Source: a bacterium (lineage in GTDB: Bacteria; JAMCPX01). From it: a stretch of 35,315 bases of DNA. The stretch is from contig JAJYUJ010000028.1 in the NCBI GenBank assembly GCA_021792615.1, positions 1 to 35,315 on the forward strand. The letters run 5' to 3'. Below the pieces are notes generated by a model. That model saw only the letters and a program-made list of their open reading frames with translations. It was not told the DNA's origin and ran no database searches. Numbering within the stretch: position 1 is the first letter of the stretch; each line of letters begins with the position of its first letter. Both the position numbers and the translations under genes were made by a program. Shown here in pieces: positions 1,086 to 30,448 of this stretch.

Positions 1086-3179
1086 ATGCAGGACACTATA
1101 TTTAAGCCAAAAAGTATTGCGCTGATCGGTGCATCAAAAGTACCCGGGAAGGTCGGGTACAGCTTGCTGAAAAACATTAAAGACGGCGGTTATGGAGGCA
1201 GGATTTATCCGGTCAATCCAACAACACCGGAAATACTCGGAGTCAAAGTATACCCTGATATTAAAAGTATACCCGGTGACGTGGACCTTGCCGTGTTCAT
1301 GATACCGCCGAAGGCCATCATAGCTTCACTCAAGGATTGTGCCGATAAAAAGGTCAAGTTCGTGGTTGTCATTTCTGCCGGATTTAAAGAGGTCGGTGTA
1401 GAAGGTGCACTGCTCGAAAGGCAATTGAAAGAGCAGGCTGACACCTATGGCATACGGGTTGTCGGACCAAACTGTCTCGGCATCATCGATACAAAGTCAA
1501 AATTGAATGCGTCGTTTGCGGCAGACATGCCGCTCACGGGCGATATTTCGATACTGTCACAATCGGGAGCGCTGCTGACGGCAATACTCGATTGGGCACT
1601 TGCCAACGATATGGGTTTTTCTAAATTCGTAAGCCTCGGAAACAAGGCCGACCTGAATGAGGCGGATTTCATAGAGTACCTTGCGGATGACCCTGAAACA
1701 AAGGTCATACTCGGCTACATCGAGGGGGTTGCAGACGGCAAGGCATTCATTGAAAAAGCATACAGGGCATCGAAGAAAAAGCCGGTCATCCTGATTAAGG
1801 CAGGCGGAACAAAGGTCGGTGCACGGGCATCATCATCACATACCGGAACACTTGCTGGCTCTGACGCAGCGTTTGACGCGGCCTTCAAACAATCGGGTGT
1901 TATCCGGGCACACACCATAGAGGAATTGTTCGATATCGGCAAACTTCTGGAAAGCCAGCCCCTGCCCGGCGACGGAGGACTTGCCATCGTTACCAATGCA
2001 GGTGGACCGGGTATCATCACTGCCGATGCAACAGAACGGGCAGGCATACGGCTCGCACACATCAGCGACGACAGTGTACTTTCCCTGAAGAAGGTCCTGC
2101 CACCATCCGCAGCTTTTGGAAATCCATTCGATATTATCGGCGACGCACTCGCTGACAGGTATAAATCCGCAATCGAAATTATAACGAAAGATAAAGATGT
2201 TGCCGGTATATTCATACTGCTTACACCGCAGGACATGACCGAGATAGACAAGACGGCGGCTCTCGTCGTTGAGGCCGCAAAAAATGCGGACAAACCGATC
2301 ATTGCAGGTTTTATGGGAGGAAGGGATGTGGGAAAAGGTATCAAGGCCCTGAATAATGGGAAGGTGCCAAACTATATCTTTCCCGAATCGGCAGTAAAAG
2401 CATATAGAATAGCGCTCGATTACAAAGAATGGCTGAACAAACCGGAAAAAACCTACAGAAGATTTGAAGTTGATTTGACCAGTGTTCAGAACGATCTTCA
2501 CACCGTGCAGGCATCCGGCAGGTCGGGCCTCGTTGACGTAGAAGCAAGGAAGATCGTGGAGGCGTACGGTTTTAAAACGCCGAAGAGTATGCTTGCCAAC
2601 ACCCTGGAACAGGCAAAGGCTTACGCAGGAACAGCAGGGTATCCCATAGTCATGAAGATAGCTTCGCCGGATATCCTCCATAAAACGGACGTCGGCGGTG
2701 TTGTGGTTGGCATAAATGACGAGCAGCAGCTTGAACAAGCTTTTTATTCGATAACAAACAATGCGCGCAAGTTTATGCCTTCTGCAAGGATCTGGGGCGT
2801 TGTGGTACAGCAGATGCTCATGACCGGCACAGAGACTATCGTAGGAATGCACATCGATCCGAACTTCGGTCCGCTTGTCATGTTCGGCCTTGGCGGCATT
2901 TATGTAGAGGTGCTGAAGGATGTTTCTTTCAGGGTCGCTCCGGTAGCGGAATCAGAGGCCTATGAGATGATAAAAGAGATCAGATCGTACCCCCTGCTTC
3001 AGGGTGTCCGGGGTGCAAAAAAAAGAGATATAGATGCAATCGTCGACGCAATACTGAGAGTTTCCCAGTTAGTTACGGATAATCCAGACATTGTGGAACT
3101 CGACATAAATCCATTACTCGTCCAGGCAGAAGGTGAAGGTGCAATAGCAGTGGATGCGCGTATCTCTATAAAACATTGA
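1086..3179 (+). CDS. Acyl/acetyl-CoA synthetase (ADP-forming), fused alpha-beta
   Basis: This 697-residue protein belongs to the NDP-forming acyl-CoA synthetase family, which interconverts acyl-CoA + ADP + Pi with acid + CoA + ATP and conserves energy at substrate level in anaerobes. In order it shows a CoA-binding Rossmann domain (start IALIGAS, about residues 8-135), a succinyl-CoA-synthetase-like flavodoxin domain with SQSGALL, the phosphohistidine loop SSHTGTLAGSD (H252), a second ligase domain with TNAGGPG, and an ATP-grasp domain (about 470-690) containing IVMKIASPDILHKTDVGGV. Length and fused order match single-chain enzymes. It is followed after 11 bp by the BioD-like protein, a frequent neighbour of this family. 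Substrate (acetate or another acid) cannot be told from sequence. Gene symbols such as acdA are used inconsistently, so none is given. Confidence 0.93.
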   Translation: MQDTIFKPKSIALIGASKVPGKVGYSLLKNIKDGGYGGRIYPVNPTTPEILGVKVYPDIKSIPGDVDLAVFMIPPKAIIASLKDCADKKVKFVVVISAGFKEVGVEGALLERQLKEQADTYGIRVVGPNCLGIIDTKSKLNASFAADMPLTGDISILSQSGALLTAILDWALANDMGFSKFVSLGNKADLNEADFIEYLADDPETKVILGYIEGVADGKAFIEKAYRASKKKPVILIKAGGTKVGARASSSHTGTLAGSDAAFDAAFKQSGVIRAHTIEELFDIGKLLESQPLPGDGGLAIVTNAGGPGIITADATERAGIRLAHISDDSVLSLKKVLPPSAAFGNPFDIIGDALADRYKSAIEIITKDKDVAGIFILLTPQDMTEIDKTAALVVEAAKNADKPIIAGFMGGRDVGKGIKALNNGKVPNYIFPESAVKAYRIALDYKEWLNKPEKTYRRFEVDLTSVQNDLHTVQASGRSGLVDVEARKIVEAYGFKTPKSMLANTLEQAKAYAGTAGYPIVMKIASPDILHKTDVGGVVVGINDEQQLEQAFYSITNNARKFMPSARIWGVVVQQMLMTGTETIVGMHIDPNFGPLVMFGLGGIYVEVLKDVSFRVAPVAESEAYEMIKEIRSYPLLQGVRGAKKRDIDAIVDAILRVSQLVTDNPDIVELDINPLLVQAEGEGAIAVDARISIKH

Positions 3180-3190
3180 GGAGGTAATAT

Positions 3191-4273
3191 ATGAATTCCG
3201 GAACAATTCCGTTATTTATCGGTTCGACAAACAGCTATTCGGGTAAAACGCTCTTATCCACGGTACTCGGTAAAATGCTTCAGGAACAAGGGCACAACGT
3301 CGGATATATGAGGGTTATAGGGAAGTCTATCGCAAGCCAGGGCAATATTCTTTATGATGTCGATGCGGCGTTTGTCAAAAAGGCTCTCGGCCTCAAAGAT
3401 CCCGTAGAAAAGATGTCCCCTGTCATTCTGACGCACGACCTTACATCATCGGTATTCAAGGGTAAGGAGTATGACGGTCTGAATTTGTTCAAGAATGCAT
3501 ACGCGGAGCTTTCTTCGGATAAAGATATTATGCTTATCAGCGGTGCTGCAAACCTCTATGAGGGTCTGACCATGAAGATAAGCAGTTTGATCACGATAAA
3601 GGCCTTGAATGCCCAGACCGTTCTTATCGACCCCTACAGGGACGAAGTGTGCGTTGATTGCATTCTTTCATCAAAAGAATTGCTCGGCAAAAGGCTCGCT
3701 GGCGTCATCCTGAATATGGTGACATTCGACGACATGGAGTTCGTTGCAGACAATATCATACCGTATCTTGAAAAGCAGGGTGTGAAGGTTTTTGGCATGG
3801 TGCCGAGGACTTCCGAGCTGGAATCCGTGTCCGTACGGCAGATACGGGATGCCGTGGGGGGGGAGATGCTTTCGGGTCACGACAAGCTCGATGAGCTTGT
3901 TGAAAATATCGTCGTTGGTGCAATGGATGTTGAGAATGCGCTGAAGCATTTTATCAAAAAGAAAAACAAGGCGGTTATAACAGGTGCAAACCGCGCCGAT
4001 ATAATCATAGCAGCCCTCGAAACATCGACAAAATGCCTTGTCCTTACGGGAGATATTCTGCCCAATGAGATCGTACTCGGCAGGGCACAGGCAATGAACG
4101 TCCCCGTTATTCATGTTAAATACGACACCTTAAGCACCATATCAAAGATTGAATCCATCATAGGCAAGGTGCGCATTGTGCGGGATGATCAAGTAAAAAG
4201 GGGCTATGATATAATCAAGCAGTATGTCAATACAAAAGCCCTTTTCGAATCCATGGGGATTTCACCAAAATAA
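3191..4273 (+). CDS. BioD-like P-loop protein with DRTGG domain (phosphotransacetylase N-terminal-like)
   Basis: A 360-residue soluble protein with a P-loop at residues 11-20 (GSTNSYSGKT) typical of the dethiobiotin-synthetase-like fold found at the N-terminus of long phosphotransacetylases (COG0857). A central segment (about 215-320) resembles the DRTGG domain. The catalytic phosphate acetyltransferase domain is absent, so this is a stand-alone regulatory or sensing module rather than a Pta. A strong Shine-Dalgarno, GAGGAGGT at 3178-3185 overlapping the previous stop, sets the start. The pairing with the ADP-forming acyl-CoA synthetase suggests that it senses or modulates acyl-CoA metabolism; this is inference from context. 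A terminator follows the stop within about 20 bp. Confidence 0.85.
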   Translation: MNSGTIPLFIGSTNSYSGKTLLSTVLGKMLQEQGHNVGYMRVIGKSIASQGNILYDVDAAFVKKALGLKDPVEKMSPVILTHDLTSSVFKGKEYDGLNLFKNAYAELSSDKDIMLISGAANLYEGLTMKISSLITIKALNAQTVLIDPYRDEVCVDCILSSKELLGKRLAGVILNMVTFDDMEFVADNIIPYLEKQGVKVFGMVPRTSELESVSVRQIRDAVGGEMLSGHDKLDELVENIVVGAMDVENALKHFIKKKNKAVITGANRADIIIAALETSTKCLVLTGDILPNEIVLGRAQAMNVPVIHVKYDTLSTISKIESIIGKVRIVRDDQVKRGYDIIKQYVNTKALFESMGISPK

Positions 4274-4289
4274 AACCTCGAAAAAACTT

Positions 4290-4324
4290 GCGGGGGTGGT
4301 TCAAGAACCGCCCCCGCTTTTTTT
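4290..4324 (+). terminator. Rho-independent terminator after the acyl-CoA synthetase operon
   Basis: A GC-rich hairpin with arms GCGGGGGTGGTT and AACCGCCCCCGC (one G-U pair) around a CAAG loop is followed by seven T residues. It lies about 16 bp after the BioD-like gene and separates it from the lpdA operon. Confidence 0.93.
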
Positions 4325-4405: not shown

Positions 4406-4419
4406 ACTTGTATACAAGT
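4406..4419. promoter_or_regulatory. 14-bp perfect palindrome upstream of lpdA (possible operator)
   Basis: ACTTGTATACAAGT is identical to its reverse complement. It ends 5 bp upstream of a TTGACA -35 hexamer. The inner GT-AT-AC arrangement resembles operators of GntR-type repressors, but no regulator gene is adjacent. It could be a binding site for a regulator of the lpdA-cytochrome operon; that role is inferred only from symmetry and position. Confidence 0.5.
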
Positions 4420-4424
4420 TTTTA

Positions 4425-4454
4425 TTGACAAAAAATTTTTATGCTTGCTACCTT
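4425..4454 (+). promoter_or_regulatory. Candidate promoter for the lpdA-gcvH-nfnAB-cytochrome operon
   Basis: A perfect -35 hexamer TTGACA (4425-4430) is followed after 18 bp by TACCTT (4449-4454), a weak -10. Transcription would start very near the lpdA ATG, giving an extremely short or absent leader. The -35 is convincing but the -10 is poor. Confidence 0.45.
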
Positions 4455-4460
4455 GAGACT

Positions 4461-5873
4461 ATGAGTGATCTCTCATCTTATAATCTTGTTGTTATCGGCG
4501 CAGGGATAGGCGGTTATCCTGCTGCAATAAGGGCTGCTCAACTGGGCGCAAGCGTACTCATCGTGGACAAAGGAGAAACTGGCGGAACCTGTCTGAACAG
4601 GGGATGCATTCCTACCAAGGCGTTCAAGGCGACTTCCGACACATTACTCCGCATGCATAAGCTGGATGAGTTCGGTTTGTCCGGTGAGGTAAACATAAAG
4701 GCCGACATCAAAACGATTGTTCAGCGCAAGAACAGGATTGTGAGCGAACTGGTCAAAGGGGTGGAGTTCCTTTTCAAATCCCATGGCGTTACGCTGAAAA
4801 AGGCATCCGCCGCATTCCTGTCAAAGAACAGGCTCCAACTGACCTATTCTGATGGTACCCGCGAGGTTGTGGAATCGAAGAGGTTTATTATTGGTACGGG
4901 CTCTTCCCCTGCCGATCTGCCCGGCATAAGAGCAGACGGGAAATTTATTCTGGACAGCACCGACATCCTCAATATTGATACTCTGCCGAAAAGACTTATA
5001 ATAATAGGAGCCGGCGTGATTGGAACGGAATTTGCATTCATATTCAAAAGCTTGGGTGTGGATATTGTCATGCTTGAAATCATGTCCAGGGCATTACCGA
5101 CCGAAGATGAGGATATTGCATCGTTGATAATAAGAAGTTTAAAAAAATCCGGCATAACGCTCAGAACAGGCACCAGGGTTACACAGGCAGAGATACACGG
5201 ACAGGAAGTTAATCTTTACCTGGACAACGGTGAGGTTGTAACCGGGGACTGTGTACTTTTATCAGTCGGCAGGGCCATAAACACCGGTGGACTCGGACTG
5301 GAAAACACCGGCGTCAGACTCGGAAAGAGAAAAGAGATTGTGGTCGATAAGTTTTTAAGCACCGGCGTGGACGGTATTTATGCATGCGGGGATGCGATCG
5401 GGGGAAAGATGCTTGCACACATCGCTTACCGGGAAGGTATCACCGCGGCATCGAACCTGCTGGAAGACAAAAAACTTACAATAAATTACGATGCCATACC
5501 GTCCGCTCTCTATTCAACCCCTGAGGCTGCAAGCGTTGGATTGACGGAAAAATCGGCCCGGGAAAAGGGGCTGGATATAAAGATCGGAAGGTTTCCCTAC
5601 AGAGCGCTCGGCAAGGCAAGGGCTTTTTCACAAACAGAAGGCGAAGTAAAGGTCATCGTTGAGCAGGGAACGGATAAAGTCCTCGGTATGCATATCGCAG
5701 GGGCACACGCAACGGATATCATTGCACAGGGTGCAATCGCCATCCAGAACGGACTGACCATACAATCCATCATCAACACGGTAGCGGCGCACCCGACTTA
5801 CTCAGAAGCTGTTATGGAAGCCGGTGAAGATATTTTTTCGCGGGCAATTCATCAGCCGAAAAAAACAAGATAG
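4461..5873 (+). CDS. lpdA: Dihydrolipoyl dehydrogenase (E3)
   Basis: A flavoprotein that oxidises dihydrolipoyl groups with NAD+. The 470-residue chain has an FAD-binding GAGIGGYPAA motif at 13-22, the redox-active pair C44/C49 in GGTCLNRGCIPTK, a second dinucleotide fold IIIGAGVIGTEFAF, an FAD-contact segment YACGDAIGG and the C-terminal catalytic pair H444/E449 in HPTYSE. The open frame extends about 79 codons upstream through the terminator and palindrome; that extension is rejected because homology begins only at ATG 4461. The ribosome-binding site is weak. A seven-codon ORF (ATG 4441) ends in an ATGA overlap with this start. The next gene, encoding a lipoyl-carrier protein, starts 13 bp downstream, making a natural enzyme-substrate pair. 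No E1/E2 or glycine-cleavage P or T gene is present here. Confidence 0.94.
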   Translation: MSDLSSYNLVVIGAGIGGYPAAIRAAQLGASVLIVDKGETGGTCLNRGCIPTKAFKATSDTLLRMHKLDEFGLSGEVNIKADIKTIVQRKNRIVSELVKGVEFLFKSHGVTLKKASAAFLSKNRLQLTYSDGTREVVESKRFIIGTGSSPADLPGIRADGKFILDSTDILNIDTLPKRLIIIGAGVIGTEFAFIFKSLGVDIVMLEIMSRALPTEDEDIASLIIRSLKKSGITLRTGTRVTQAEIHGQEVNLYLDNGEVVTGDCVLLSVGRAINTGGLGLENTGVRLGKRKEIVVDKFLSTGVDGIYACGDAIGGKMLAHIAYREGITAASNLLEDKKLTINYDAIPSALYSTPEAASVGLTEKSAREKGLDIKIGRFPYRALGKARAFSQTEGEVKVIVEQGTDKVLGMHIAGAHATDIIAQGAIAIQNGLTIQSIINTVAAHPTYSEAVMEAGEDIFSRAIHQPKKTR

Positions 5874-5886
5874 GAGGTTAACTTTT

Positions 5887-6270
5887 ATGGCAGAAGAGAT
5901 GTGGTATAACGAAAATCACCTTTGGGTTACTGTAGAAAACAATCATGCATATATAGGCATATCTTATTACGCGCAGGAAGAGCTCGGGGACATCCTTTAT
6001 ATCGAACTGCCCGAGGTCGGGGATAAGGTCGTTCAGGGGAAATCCTTCGGCGAAATAGAGTCGTCAAAAACGATCAGCGACCTTGTAGCCCCGCTTTCCG
6101 GAAAGGTGGTTGAGGTGAACTCCGATGTGATCAATGAGCCGTCTATCCTCAATGAGGACCCTCTCGGAGACGGGTGGCTCATAGAAATAGAGGGCGTCGA
6201 TCAAAAGGAATTAAAAGCCTTATTTACCCAGGAAAAATATGAAAATTATATAAAGGAATCGGCAAAATGA
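5887..6270 (+). CDS. gcvH: GcvH-like lipoyl carrier protein
   Basis: A 127-residue protein of glycine-cleavage H-protein size. It has the N-terminal YNENHLWV signature (compare YTKEHEWV), the GDILYIELPEVG strand and the lipoylation hairpin ESSKTISDL, with the modified lysine at K61 (by homology). Canonical H-proteins read ESVKAASD. The C-terminal NEDPLGDGWL is conserved. Start at 5887 is fixed by the Shine-Dalgarno AGGAGGT at 5872-5878, which overlaps the lpdA stop; an upstream in-frame ATG inside lpdA is rejected. The stop overlaps the nfnA start (ATGA). It could serve glycine cleavage, but with no gcvP or gcvT here and Nfn/cytochrome genes downstream, it may instead be a lipoyl redox carrier comparable in concept to LbpA of the sHdr sulfur-oxidation pathway. 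That alternative is inference. Confidence 0.88.
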   Translation: MAEEMWYNENHLWVTVENNHAYIGISYYAQEELGDILYIELPEVGDKVVQGKSFGEIESSKTISDLVAPLSGKVVEVNSDVINEPSILNEDPLGDGWLIEIEGVDQKELKALFTQEKYENYIKESAK

Positions 6271-7103
6271 ACAAAATAGTAAGAAAAAAACTGCTATCTC
6301 AGGTCATAGCAGAGATAGAAATTTCTGCGCCCCATATTGCCAAATCCCAAAAACCCGGCCAGTTTGTTATCATTAGGGTCGACGATAAAGGCGAAAGGAT
6401 ACCTCTTACCATAGCAAATTCCAACCAGGAAAAGGGTACGGTAACTATCATTGTTCAGGCTATCGGTAAAACCACGGTAAAATTGAATGCAATGGAAGAA
6501 GGAGAATCCATAGCCGATGTGGTCGGTCCCCTTGGAAAGCCTTCACACATAGAGCACTTCGGCAGGGTTGTTACCATTGGCGGCGGTGTGGGCACTGCGA
6601 TCGCATGGCCAACGACACGGGCGTTCAAAAAAGCAGGTAACGAGGTCATCAGCATCATCGGAGCACGGACGAAGGAACTCCTGATTCTGGAGGACGAAAT
6701 GAGGGCTGTATCGGACAGGGTTATCGTAACTACGGACGACGGCAGCTATGCAAACAAAGGGTTTGTTACGGACTCGCTCAAAGGACTGATAGATAACAAT
6801 CTTATCCCAAACATGGTACTCGCCATAGGCCCTGTACCTATGATGAGGGCAGTGTCAGAGCTTACGAAGAAGTATGCCATCCCCACGGTCGTAAGTCTCA
6901 ACCCCATTATGCTCGACGGTACAGGTATGTGCGGTGTGTGCAGGGTTTCAGTCGGCGGCAAAACGATGTTCGCCTGTGTTGACGGCCCGGAATTTGACGC
7001 ACATGAAGTAGATTTTGCAGGTCTTATGCAGAGGCTCAAGGTCTACCAGAAGGAAGAAAAATTATCGTTGGAACTTTTAAAAGCATATGAAAGGGTAAGT
7101 TAA
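6267..7103 (+). CDS. nfnA: Ferredoxin-NADP+ oxidoreductase/sulfide dehydrogenase small subunit (NfnA/SudB-like)
   Basis: A 278-residue FAD/NAD-binding protein with a ferredoxin-reductase fold. It shows the flavin-binding RIPLTIAN motif (compare RxYS/T), a nucleotide-binding IGGGVGTA loop and a C-terminal [2Fe-2S] ligand set D217-x4-C222-x2-C225-x11-C237, which is the Asp/Cys3 arrangement described for the Pyrococcus SudB/Nfn family. In NfnAB, this subunit couples NADH to ferredoxin and NADP+ by electron bifurcation; the SudB name reflects sulfide/polysulfide activity reported for the archaeal enzyme. The start overlaps the gcvH stop by 4 bp, and nfnB begins 1 bp after its stop, so translation is coupled. 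Which physiological donor or acceptor is used here is unknown. Confidence 0.9.
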   Translation: MNKIVRKKLLSQVIAEIEISAPHIAKSQKPGQFVIIRVDDKGERIPLTIANSNQEKGTVTIIVQAIGKTTVKLNAMEEGESIADVVGPLGKPSHIEHFGRVVTIGGGVGTAIAWPTTRAFKKAGNEVISIIGARTKELLILEDEMRAVSDRVIVTTDDGSYANKGFVTDSLKGLIDNNLIPNMVLAIGPVPMMRAVSELTKKYAIPTVVSLNPIMLDGTGMCGVCRVSVGGKTMFACVDGPEFDAHEVDFAGLMQRLKVYQKEEKLSLELLKAYERVS

Positions 7104-7104
7104 C

Positions 7105-8520
7105 ATGGCAACGTTAGACAAAAAAGAAAGATTGAAGATACCAAGGCAGCAGATGCCTGCACAGGACCCTCTCGCGAGGATAGCAAATTTTGAAGAGGTC
7201 AACTTTGGGTTTACGCCCAACATGGCAATACTTGAGGCTCAGAGGTGCCTGTTTTGCCCTAAGCCGCCCTGTGTTGCAGGCTGTCCTGTCAATATAAATA
7301 TACCTTCTTTTATATCGCTGATAGCAGAAGGGAAGTTTACCGAGGCAGCAAAAAAAATCAAAGAAACCAACAGCCTTCCGGCTATATGCGGCAGGGTCTG
7401 CCCGCAGGAGGAGCAGTGCGAAGGTGTGTGTGTTGTCGGTAAAAAGGGCGTCTCCGTTGCAATAGGACATCTTGAGAGATTTGCCGCTGATTGGGAAAGG
7501 ACGCACGGAGAAACGACTATACCCGAAAAAAAGACATCTACAGGAAAAAAGATCGCTATTGTCGGATCCGGCCCATCGGGATTAACCGTCGCATCGGAAC
7601 TTGTTCAGATGGGGCATAGTGTTACCGTTTTTGAGGCGCTTCATGTACCAGGTGGTGTACTTGCATACGGTATACCGGAATTCAGGCTTCCAAAGGGCAT
7701 ACTGGGCAGTGAGGTGGAATACCTTAAAAACTTGGGGGTTGAGATTGTTACGGACTTTGTTGTGGGAAAGACCTCTACGCTGGACGAACTCCTGAATGAG
7801 GGCGGCTACGATGCCGCATTTGTGGGCAGTGGCGCAGGTTTACCGGTATTTACGAATATACCGGGGGAGAACCTGAACGGGGTATACTCGGCAAATGAAT
7901 ACCTTACGAGGACAAATCTGATGAAATCCTATCTATTCCCGGAGTATGACACACCTATAGCAAAGGCAAAAAATGTAGCCGTGTTTGGTGGCGGTAATAC
8001 GGCAATGGACGCGGTAAGGACGGCAAAGCGATTTGGCACGGAACATGCATACTTAATTTACAGGAGGTCGTGGGATGAAATGCCGGCAAGACTTGAGGAA
8101 AGGCACCATGCAAAAGAGGAAGGTATTGAGTTTATGTTTTTAATGGCCCCTACAAGGTTCATCGGTGACGAGAACGGCTGGGTAAAGGGAGTTGAATGCA
8201 TAAAAATGGAACTCGGTGAGCCCGATGCCTCGGGAAGGAGAAGACCTATACCGGTCAAAGGCTCCGAGTTTACCCTGGATGTGGAACTTGCTGTAATAGC
8301 TGTCGGCAATGGTTCAAACCCGTTAATACCGCTTACAACACCCGATGTACAGACCAATAAATGGGGTAATATTATCGTGAAAGAGAAAACAACGGCAACG
8401 ACAAAATCCGGGGTGTTCGCTGGCGGAGACATTGTCCGGGGCGGTGCTACGGTCATACTTGCAATGGGAGACGGAAAGCAAGCAGCTAAAGAAATAGATA
8501 CGTATTTAAATTCCAAATAA
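7105..8520 (+). CDS. nfnB: Glutamate-synthase-small-subunit-like flavoprotein (NfnB/SudA-like)
   Basis: A 471-residue FAD and iron-sulfur protein. The N-terminal domain carries two four-ligand cluster motifs (C48/C51/C56/C60 and C95/C99/C105/C109), followed by an FAD-binding fold VGSGPSG near residue 153 and an NADPH-binding fold FGGGNTAMDA in the C-terminal half; the closing FAGGDIVRGGATVI is the conserved FAD-binding motif. The same architecture is annotated as gltD-like, but no large glutamate synthase subunit is nearby and the partner is an NfnA-type protein, which favours NfnB/SudA. With NfnA it would interconvert NADH, NADPH and ferredoxin, or reduce sulfur compounds. It is separated from the cytochrome gene by only 15 bp. 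Confidence 0.9.
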   Translation: MATLDKKERLKIPRQQMPAQDPLARIANFEEVNFGFTPNMAILEAQRCLFCPKPPCVAGCPVNINIPSFISLIAEGKFTEAAKKIKETNSLPAICGRVCPQEEQCEGVCVVGKKGVSVAIGHLERFAADWERTHGETTIPEKKTSTGKKIAIVGSGPSGLTVASELVQMGHSVTVFEALHVPGGVLAYGIPEFRLPKGILGSEVEYLKNLGVEIVTDFVVGKTSTLDELLNEGGYDAAFVGSGAGLPVFTNIPGENLNGVYSANEYLTRTNLMKSYLFPEYDTPIAKAKNVAVFGGGNTAMDAVRTAKRFGTEHAYLIYRRSWDEMPARLEERHHAKEEGIEFMFLMAPTRFIGDENGWVKGVECIKMELGEPDASGRRRPIPVKGSEFTLDVELAVIAVGNGSNPLIPLTTPDVQTNKWGNIIVKEKTTATTKSGVFAGGDIVRGGATVILAMGDGKQAAKEIDTYLNSK

Positions 8521-8535
8521 AGGGGGTGAACGAAG

Positions 8536-8979
8536 ATGAGATTAACAAGAGTTTTTACGGTATTGGCAACAATGATAGCAATAACTGCAATGGCATACAC
8601 GGCAAAGGCTGCACCAACCTATGTGGGTGTCAACCAGTGTAAGATGTGTCATATGAAGCAGTACAACGTGTGGAAAGATACGGCCCATGCAAAGGCATTT
8701 GATGTTCTAAAACCAGCGGATCAGTCAAAACCAGAATGTATCAAGTGTCATATTACCGGTGACAATAAGGAGCTCAAGGGCGTACAGTGTGAAGCATGTC
8801 ATGGTCCGGGCAGTGAGTATAAGTCATTTGCCGTCATGAAGAACGTGAAGGAGGCGGAAGCCAAAGGACTGGTTCCAAAGCCTGTTAACGTATGCGTCAA
8901 GTGTCACAACAAGAATAGTCCGAACTTCAAAGGCTTTGACTTCAATACGGCATGGCCTAAGATTAAACACGGACTATAA
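8536..8979 (+). CDS. Secreted tetraheme c-type cytochrome
   Basis: A 147-residue protein with a Sec signal peptide (MRLTRVF then a hydrophobic stretch, likely cleavage after AKA near residue 25) and four CxxCH heme-attachment motifs at C35, C68, C85 and C120. Spacing and the small size suggest the cytochrome c554/NapC-like tetraheme fold family (PF13435-like), acting in the periplasm. Ribosome binding by GGGGGTGA just upstream is strong. It is the last gene of the lpdA operon and is followed by a terminator, so a periplasmic electron carrier is co-expressed with cytosolic flavoproteins. No membrane quinol-oxidising subunit is encoded in the operon, so the electron path across the membrane is not explained here. 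Confidence 0.9.
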   Translation: MRLTRVFTVLATMIAITAMAYTAKAAPTYVGVNQCKMCHMKQYNVWKDTAHAKAFDVLKPADQSKPECIKCHITGDNKELKGVQCEACHGPGSEYKSFAVMKNVKEAEAKGLVPKPVNVCVKCHNKNSPNFKGFDFNTAWPKIKHGL

Positions 8980-9013
8980 TAGTCAGCATAGTGTTTACCA
9001 TGATCTGATTTAA

Positions 9014-9047
9014 GCGGGGATTCTGTTCCAGAATCCCCGCATTTTTT
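9014..9047 (+). terminator. Rho-independent terminator after the tetraheme cytochrome
   Basis: A perfect 12-bp stem GCGGGGATTCTG / CAGAATCCCCGC with a TTC loop is followed by an A and seven T residues. It closes the lpdA operon and lies between convergent genes; on the minus strand the trailing sequence is less T-rich, so it acts mainly on the plus strand. Confidence 0.93.
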
Positions 9048-11011: not shown

Positions 11012-11688
11012 GGCATCCCCGCTATTAATTGTGCAAGTACCAGGTCTTCTTCCCTGGTAATTTTGATATTGAATATACTTCCTGCAACAGTTCTCACCTT
11101 TACACCAAGTAATTCTACTAACCCGGATTCATCGGTTACGTCAACACGGCGGGTATCGTACATCTTGTATGCCTCTGCAAGTATGTTGTACGTAAATACC
11201 TGCGGCGTTTGCGCAAGCCATAAACCACTGCGATTGATGTTTTTTACTATGATACCGTTATTGTCGGCAAATTTTACGGTATCCGTAACAGGGATTGCAC
11301 TGATAGCAGCACCATACGATATACCGGACATGAGCACATCTTTTATGATCCCTTTCGTTATAAACGGCCGGACACTATCGTGGATAAGCACATAATCCGT
11401 TGAGCCTATCCTGTTGAACGCATTTCTTACAGACTGAATCCTTTCCTCACCGCCCTCGACAACATCTAAAACTTTTTTTATATGAAAGTCCCGGACAAGT
11501 TTCCGAATGGTATTTATTTCCGAAGCCTGAGCTGAAATAATAATCTCACCGACCTCTTCAACGCCATCAAGTGTTTGTAAGCCATGAATAAGTATAGGTT
11601 TGCCATCTATTTCTATAAATTGTTTTGGAACTGAAGATCCCAGCCTTCTACCCCTGCCGGCAGCAGGGACTATAGCTGTTATGCGCAT
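11008..11688 (-). CDS. ispD: 2-C-methyl-D-erythritol 4-phosphate cytidylyltransferase
   Basis: IspD makes CDP-ME from MEP and CTP. The 226-residue protein begins MRITAIVPAAGRGRRLG, the nucleotide-binding signature, followed by PKQF. It has the VLIHDSVRPF motif and the C-terminal VTDESGLVE segment, both typical of the family. A start at 11733 would add 15 residues overlapping yacL; the start at 11688 fits the family and lies 1 bp after the yacL stop. It is followed by ispF with a 4-bp overlap. Confidence 0.96.
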   Translation of the reverse strand: MRITAIVPAAGRGRRLGSSVPKQFIEIDGKPILIHGLQTLDGVEEVGEIIISAQASEINTIRKLVRDFHIKKVLDVVEGGEERIQSVRNAFNRIGSTDYVLIHDSVRPFITKGIIKDVLMSGISYGAAISAIPVTDTVKFADNNGIIVKNINRSGLWLAQTPQVFTYNILAEAYKMYDTRRVDVTDESGLVELLGVKVRTVAGSIFNIKITREEDLVLAQLIAGMP

Positions 11689-29563: not shown

Positions 29564-30448
29564 ATGAAGACGAAGAGACTTCCGGAATACCTGAAAAAAA
29601 ACCTCGTCCTGAGCGGCGGCGTCCATGATACAAAAGTAATGCTCCGGCATAAAGGGCTTCACACGGTGTGCGAGTCTGCCCGGTGCCCGAATTTAAGCGA
29701 GTGCTTCGGCATGAGCAGAGCAACGTTTTTGATTATGGGCGATGCCTGTACAAGGGCATGCAGGTTCTGCTCCGTGGACAAGGGACACCCCCGGGCGCTC
29801 GATCCCGATGAGCCGCGCAGAATCGCCCGGAGCATCACGGAGCTTGGCATACGGCATGCTGTCATAACGTCCGTTACACGGGACGATCTGCAGGATGGCG
29901 GGGCGGATCACTTTTACAAAACCGCAAGGGCCGTCAAAGAGACAAGCCCCGGGACAACCGTTGAACTGCTTACCCCTGACTTCCAAGGCAATAAGGATGC
30001 AATCGCACATCTGCTCGAAGCCGGGTTCGAGATATTCAACCACAATGTGGAGACCGTGCCTCGCCTGTATAAAAAAATCAGGCCGCAGGCTATTTATGAG
30101 CGCTCTCTTGATGTGCTGCGGTTCGTTAAACAACAGAAGCATATCCTTATCAAATCCGGATTGATGGTGGGACTCGGAGAGACGGTTCCGGAAATAAAAA
30201 CAGTGCTGAAGGATTTGAAAGAAGCAGGATGCGATATCGTTACCATAGGACAATATCTTATGCCGACGCTGAAGAACATCCCGGTTCAGGCATACCTTAC
30301 TCATAATGTTTATGAAGAGTATCGAAGGTTCGGAACGGGGATTGGCATTCGCTATGTTTATGCCGGCCCTTTTGTAAGAAGTTCATACCACGCACAGGAG
30401 GTCATGGACGGGTTAACCCGGGAACCGTATTTAACCCGAAAAATGTAA
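29564..30448 (+). CDS. lipA: Lipoyl synthase
   Basis: LipA inserts two sulfur atoms into octanoyl-carrier proteins to make the lipoyl group. The 294-residue radical-SAM enzyme has the auxiliary [4Fe-4S] ligands C36/C41/C47 (CESARCPNLSEC), the radical-SAM ligands C62/C66/C69 (CTRACRFC), GGADH and the C-terminal RSSY serine segment. No lipB or lplA is adjacent. Its likely client in this window is the GcvH-like protein at 5887. The last five codons (LTRKM and stop) lie within the family iii repeat starting at 30434, so the C-terminus may have been altered by the repeat. Confidence 0.96.
   Translation: MKTKRLPEYLKKNLVLSGGVHDTKVMLRHKGLHTVCESARCPNLSECFGMSRATFLIMGDACTRACRFCSVDKGHPRALDPDEPRRIARSITELGIRHAVITSVTRDDLQDGGADHFYKTARAVKETSPGTTVELLTPDFQGNKDAIAHLLEAGFEIFNHNVETVPRLYKKIRPQAIYERSLDVLRFVKQQKHILIKSGLMVGLGETVPEIKTVLKDLKEAGCDIVTIGQYLMPTLKNIPVQAYLTHNVYEEYRRFGTGIGIRYVYAGPFVRSSYHAQEVMDGLTREPYLTRKM

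Follow-up and report, generated by a model that had tools for sequence, protein, structure and literature searches.

What does a lipoyl carrier protein of the glycine cleavage type do in an operon with neither glycine decarboxylase nor aminomethyltransferase nearby? The question is raised by a 35,315-nucleotide stretch of bacterial DNA (contig JAJYUJ010000028.1, referred to here as the window), which corresponds to contig C51 in a genome of 2.54 Mb that is 99.55% complete, and in which gcvP and gcvT are absent, as the original prediction stated. The host belongs to a little-known lineage and is a probable sulfate or sulfite reducer; its phylum is represented in our collection by 9 genomes from one family and four genera. 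The window carries five consecutive genes for dihydrolipoyl dehydrogenase (Lpd), an H-protein paralogue that we call GcvH2, the two subunits of an NADH-dependent ferredoxin:NADP oxidoreductase (NfnSL), and a tetraheme cytochrome. These genes form a real, phylum-conserved operon, and the sequence of GcvH2 is best read as that of a former H-protein paralogue that has departed from its one-carbon role.

A phylum-conserved operon of lipoyl and flavin redox proteins

All five genes lie on the plus strand, separated by 13, −4, 1, and 15 bp. The first, lpd (4461..5873), encodes a 470 amino acid E3/L-protein (TIGR01350, 509 bits, cut-off 409) with the motifs CLNRGC and HPTYSE, and these redox-active CxxxxC and HPxxxE motifs are kept in all 8 genomes with the operon. 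It is followed by gcvH2 (5887..6270), whose 127 amino acid product has a lipoyl site at K61 and a leucine at position 12 (TIGR00527, 134.4 bits, cut-off 115.85), by nfnS (6267..7103) for the small subunit with flavin adenine dinucleotide (FAD) and a [2Fe-2S] cluster (PRK06222, 414 bits, cut-off 220), and by nfnL (7105..8520) for the large subunit with FAD and two [4Fe-4S] clusters (GltA TIGR01316, 610 bits, cut-off 472). The last gene (8536..8979) encodes the cytochrome, read as periplasmic, with an N-terminal signal-like segment and four CxxCH motifs (Cytochrome_C554, 50.9 bits, cut-off 20.8); a paralogue of it is found on contig C5 of the same genome. A terminator call at 9014..9040 (plus strand) closes the operon, and a terminator of the upstream genes with a 12-pair stem and a T run (4290..4317, plus strand) precedes its promoter region. 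Coordinates, profile scores, and terminators thus bear out the original prediction in its gene number, spacing, boundaries, and family assignments.

The gcvH2 gene occurs in 8 of the 9 phylum genomes at 65-97% identity, and the order lpd-gcvH2-nfnS-nfnL is retained wherever contigs are long enough. Relatives belonging to four genera share this order, which the original prediction proposed to look for in other genomes, but differ in the genes that flank it, and the arrangement therefore goes beyond chance. The C554-like cytochrome is the next gene in G000, G002, G006, and G007. In G003 and G005, the contigs break inside the operon and the cytochrome is on other contigs, and in G004, the contig stops before its position. 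In G001 (L061, about 5700-6190), the place of the cytochrome is taken by a reading frame for a c7-like protein with three hemes; the frame contains an in-frame TAG, and a similar terminator comes after it. The operon was not found in G008, a genome of 84% completeness. Upstream of the operon (1086-4273), the window encodes an ADP-forming acyl-CoA synthetase and a DRTGG/AAA_26 protein, an arrangement kept within the genus and not in G006 or G007.

Outside the phylum, no such gene neighbourhood appeared at any of 74 loci (GcvH, 31; cytochrome, 21; NfnS, 22), most of them with flanks of only 1.5 kb. NfnSL pairs as such are widespread, and in the 22 NfnS loci from other phyla, NfnS stood beside neither gcvH nor lpd. 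A literature search found no paper on an lpd-gcvH2-nfnS-nfnL-cytochrome operon.

A second gcvH beside a complete glycine cleavage system

The original prediction implied that glycine cleavage was lacking, which does not hold for the genome as a whole. A canonical gcvT-gcvH1-gcvPA cluster is present on contig C57, downstream of folD, a MetV-like gene, and metF, and gcvPB is on contig C8. The idea that glycine decarboxylase is missing was rejected when the profile NF003346 recovered gcvPB; PF02347 alone had given only gcvPA. The gcvPB gene (L191:10361-11809) lies directly upstream of a nuo operon, away from gcvPA. With a full glycine cleavage set, GcvH included, encoded elsewhere, GcvH2 is a true second gcvH of this genome, apart from the GcvH1 of the gcv operon. 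A Wood-Ljungdahl role, through carbon monoxide dehydrogenase/acetyl-CoA synthase, was dropped; CdhC, the acetyl-CoA synthase domain, was found in 0 of the 9 genomes.

No lpd adjoins the canonical gcv genes, and besides the window protein only one Lpd in the genome scores over the cut-off; its gene belongs to a 2-oxoacid dehydrogenase operon on contig C41 that also contains lipB and lipA. The window Lpd therefore likely also serves glycine cleavage as its L-protein.

There are two lipA genes, one standing alone in the window (29564-30448) and the other next to lipB in the 2-oxoacid dehydrogenase operon (L068 10492-12020, contig C41). By analogy with GcvH in Bacillus, GcvH2 might be a relay of lipoyl assembly that takes octanoyl or lipoyl groups on to E2 proteins. 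Such a relay requires the lysine and not Glu-14, and both lipA genes and lipB would suit it, but LipB, encoded beside the 2-oxoacid dehydrogenase, works without a relay, the operon contains no ligase or amidotransferase, and K61 is lost in G007 (see below). We consider this role highly improbable.

GcvH2 has lost residues of the glycine cleavage H-protein

In molecular dynamics of the Escherichia coli H-protein, the aminomethyl nitrogen is held by Glu-12 and Glu-14 (PMC7733448). We compared the 8 GcvH2 proteins with 35 canonical GcvH sequences, 97% of which have Glu at the Glu-14 position, and found Leu or Val there in 8/8 GcvH2. The PYG motif likewise reads PLG in 8/8, a change from Tyr to Leu. 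The lipoyl lysine K61 is kept in 7/8, the window included, in the setting ES(S/A)K (ESSK in the window). An AlphaFold2 model of the window protein (predicted local distance difference test score 94) places K61 in a predicted turn between strands 53-59 and 63-67, as in H-proteins. GcvH2 thus resembles the GcvH family (PF01597, TIGR00527) in fold, length, the lipoyl lysine of the ESxK turn, an identity of 40-51%, and the presence of an Lpd gene alongside. It differs in lacking the Glu-14 equivalent and the PYG tyrosine, in having no adjoining gcvT or gcvP, in the loss of K61 in one genus, and in sharing its genome with a canonical GcvH.

In a tree of 66 GcvH-like proteins, GcvH2 forms a single clade (96/89) on the canonical GcvH side, and a 99/98 branch separates it from four LbpA proteins, which were identified here by their LipS2 context and cysteine pair. 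The tree therefore favours placement with GcvH, although a clade that joins GcvH2 with LbpA survives an approximately unbiased (AU) test (p 0.246).

Several of these observations would suit an ordinary second H-protein of glycine cleavage, with the gene of its L-protein alongside and Nfn balancing the pyridine nucleotides: GcvH2 scores over the GcvH equivalog cut-off, it falls on the GcvH side of the tree, and the window Lpd probably serves the canonical gcv genes, which have no lpd of their own. We nevertheless regard this explanation as unlikely, given that the gcv operon already has GcvH1 and that the Glu-14 equivalent and the PYG tyrosine are gone from every GcvH2, with K61 lost in G007 besides.

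GcvH2 is not an LbpA by the tested marks

The original prediction placed the GcvH-like carrier in a role outside glycine cleavage, possibly sulfur or C1 transfer after the concept of sHdr and its lipoyl protein LbpA. The first part finds support in a second copy that, lacking the Glu-14 equivalent in 8/8, does not resemble a glycine cleavage carrier; membership in LbpA/sHdr finds none. LbpA is marked by two conserved cysteines, one near each terminus (PMC6067878), and GcvH2 has no such pair, with no cysteine in 7/8 and one non-conserved cysteine in G001. LipS2, which belongs to sHdr lipoylation, gave no match over the cut-off in the 9 phylum genomes (LipS1 and sLpl were not searched). Together with the tree, these marks led us to reject GcvH2 as a member of LbpA/sHdr, with the AU test leaving kinship unrejected. 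Common to both proteins are a GcvH-like carrier outside glycine cleavage, the missing Glu-14 (the LbpA proteins identified here read NQVW or KHVW), and a host with dissimilatory sulfur metabolism; the operon of GcvH2 has Lpd and Nfn in place of sHdr.

An independent origin of a lipoyl protein that carries sulfur in the manner of LbpA would fit the shared lack of Glu-14, a host that probably reduces sulfate or sulfite, and the promoter-site core common to dsr and sat described below. With at most one cysteine per protein, no LipS2 over the cut-off, and a tree that leans the other way, if not decisively by the AU test, we judge it improbable.

A separate operon on contig C5 of the same genome (L067:1749-5908, minus strand) contains the gene for the cytochrome paralogue mentioned above, together with genes for two GcvH-domain proteins of 247 and 228 amino acids, an NrfD-type membrane protein, and a 4Fe-4S protein. 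Of this operon, at least the GcvH-like parts or the cytochrome are found again in 8 of the 9 genomes. Its two GcvH-like proteins fall on the LbpA side of the tree, and one of them has Arg for the lipoyl Lys in G007.

One genus has lost the lipoyl lysine

GcvH2 of G007 carries K61E (codon GAG) together with S64F and D65E, while the motifs of Lpd, NfnSL, and the cytochrome are intact and the operon is otherwise kept. The lipoyl arm is thus not essential in G007, which sets aside the original prediction's treatment of the arm as the invariable core of the system. GcvH2 of G007 has 65% identity, and its gene differs from the window copy at 38, 20, and 73 bases in codon positions 1, 2, and 3; this excess at third positions indicates that the G007 protein is still under constraint.

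These features would be expected of an adaptor or regulatory subunit with the H-protein fold that binds Lpd or Nfn, for which a lipoyl group is optional and was lost in one genus. The altered lipoyl turn beside intact partners and the continued conservation of the protein in G007 both speak for it, and the lysine kept in its ES(S/A)K setting next to lpd in 7/8 speaks against it; on balance we hold it to be doubtful.

A promoter core found before lpd and sulfate respiration genes

The palindrome ACTTGTATACAAGT (4406..4419, no strand), a putative operator before lpd, occurs only once in the window, even if up to 2 mismatches are tolerated (0.07 occurrences expected). Behind it lies a predicted promoter, TTGACA-N18-TACCTT (4425..4454, plus strand), and the TTGACA and TACC[CT]T boxes are kept before lpd in 8/8 genomes; the core TTGTATACAA is found there in 7/8 and is absent in G006. 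The −10-like box ends 6 nt short of the lpd ATG, so the transcript is probably leaderless.

The core of the lpd palindrome, TTGTATACA, also occurs at the −10 of dsrA in 7/7 dsr genomes, before sat, before a ROK-gntR-gntR operon transcribed divergently from dsrA, and before another gntR. A longer repeat, TGTATA-TTG-TATACA, is shared by dsrA, sat, and the lone gntR and not found at lpd; it is a candidate operator of sulfate respiration. Sites were counted in 451 kb of the host's 2.54 Mb genome, in stretches picked partly for genes of interest. There, TGTATACA occurs 8 times against 8.7 expected, but 6 of the 8 precede the genes just named or nuoA; the sites at sat, ROK-gntR-gntR, dsrA, a gntR gene, and nuoA are L194 near 11481-11520, L190:8801 and 8956, L251:188, and L191:10285. 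When 8-mer palindromes were ranked by their location at promoters, the lpd palindrome did not stand out, and its weight comes from conservation across genomes rather than from counts. A regulator shared by the lpd, dsrA, and sat sites is likely from these sequences, as a pattern seen after the fact in non-random stretches. A sulfur link, as in the original prediction, is hinted at by this promoter core.

Nfn, DsrL, and a possible tie to sulfate respiration

The window nfnS is the one strong, and only close, NfnS match in the genome. The two subunits come nearest to the bifurcating NfnI of Pyrococcus furiosus and the Nfn of Thermotoga maritima, with 338 bits for NfnS against NfnI and, for NfnL, 558 bits against the T. 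maritima enzyme and 531 bits against NfnI. Both subunits align over their whole length with NfnI/NfnAB (PDB 5jca, 4ylf), with flavin and Fe-S motifs present and the Fe-S cysteines kept; the operon partners differ. By sequence, the pair appears close to the bifurcating Nfn enzymes, in agreement with the bifurcating type that had been assigned to it. From its family, NfnSL would make NADPH from NADH and reduced ferredoxin.

The host genome encodes dsrAB, a dsrD-sized gene, dsrL, a dsrN-like gene, dsrC, and sat-apr-qmo-like genes, several of them named by eye, and dsrA scores over the cut-off in 7 of the 9 genomes. In 4/4 genomes, the DsrL beside dsrAB has the YRR motif, which marks the DsrL-2 type that uses NADPH and not NADH (PMC7596348). 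The host DsrL is thus predicted to be NADPH-dependent, so that Nfn may supply NADPH for sulfite reduction; the NADPH made by NfnSL would feed the DsrL of DsrAB.

Our favoured reading, which we hold tentatively, is that the operon serves redox reactions linked to dissimilatory sulfur metabolism or sulfate respiration, with the former H-protein as a dithiol carrier or adaptor. Besides serving the gcv genes elsewhere in the genome as their L-protein, Lpd would oxidise or reduce the lipoyl dithiol of GcvH2, the two forming an NADH-linked dithiol pair in which GcvH2 would carry electrons, and not an aminomethyl group, to some partner. The mycobacterial Lpd-DlaT-AhpD-AhpC chain offers a precedent in which Lpd passes electrons from NADH to a redox target by way of a lipoyl arm, although the carrier there is an E2 protein and the target is known. 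The more specific proposal, that GcvH2 is a lipoyl protein that abandoned one-carbon metabolism to carry electrons, as a dithiol, between Lpd and a partner in sulfate respiration, with Nfn as the coupling to NADPH and ferredoxin, and so represents a third use of the H-protein fold with an origin separate from LbpA, seems to us rather unlikely as a whole.

Several observations weigh against the favoured reading. At lpd, the palindrome is found upstream of the −35. The sites of dsrA and sat, by contrast, fall at the −10 and belong to another, longer inverted repeat (TGTATA-N3-TATACA), which makes a single regulator for all of them no more than likely. TTGTATACAA occurs twice in the 451 kb against 0.62 expected, and since 12.5% of like palindromes are as frequent, this 10-mer count is weak. 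G006 and G007 retain the operon with no dsrA over the cut-off, and its role therefore cannot be limited to sulfite reduction. The G007 operon is also kept with Glu in place of K61, and no partner of GcvH2 was found. The interpretation first put forward for the locus is partly supported. The refuting case that it set for itself, with gcvT and gcvP elsewhere and a single gcvH, does not apply, since the genome has two gcvH genes.

Implications for lipoyl proteins

Lipoyl carriers are known from few systems, and GcvH2, an H-protein copy without its one-carbon residue that sits with Lpd and Nfn and perhaps has control in common with sulfate respiration, would add another departure. What lipoyl proteins do in sulfur metabolism would become testable outside sHdr, with the genus that lacks K61 as a natural mutant for checking lipoyl-dependent models. 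The Glu-14 position also provides a simple sequence test for GcvH annotations.

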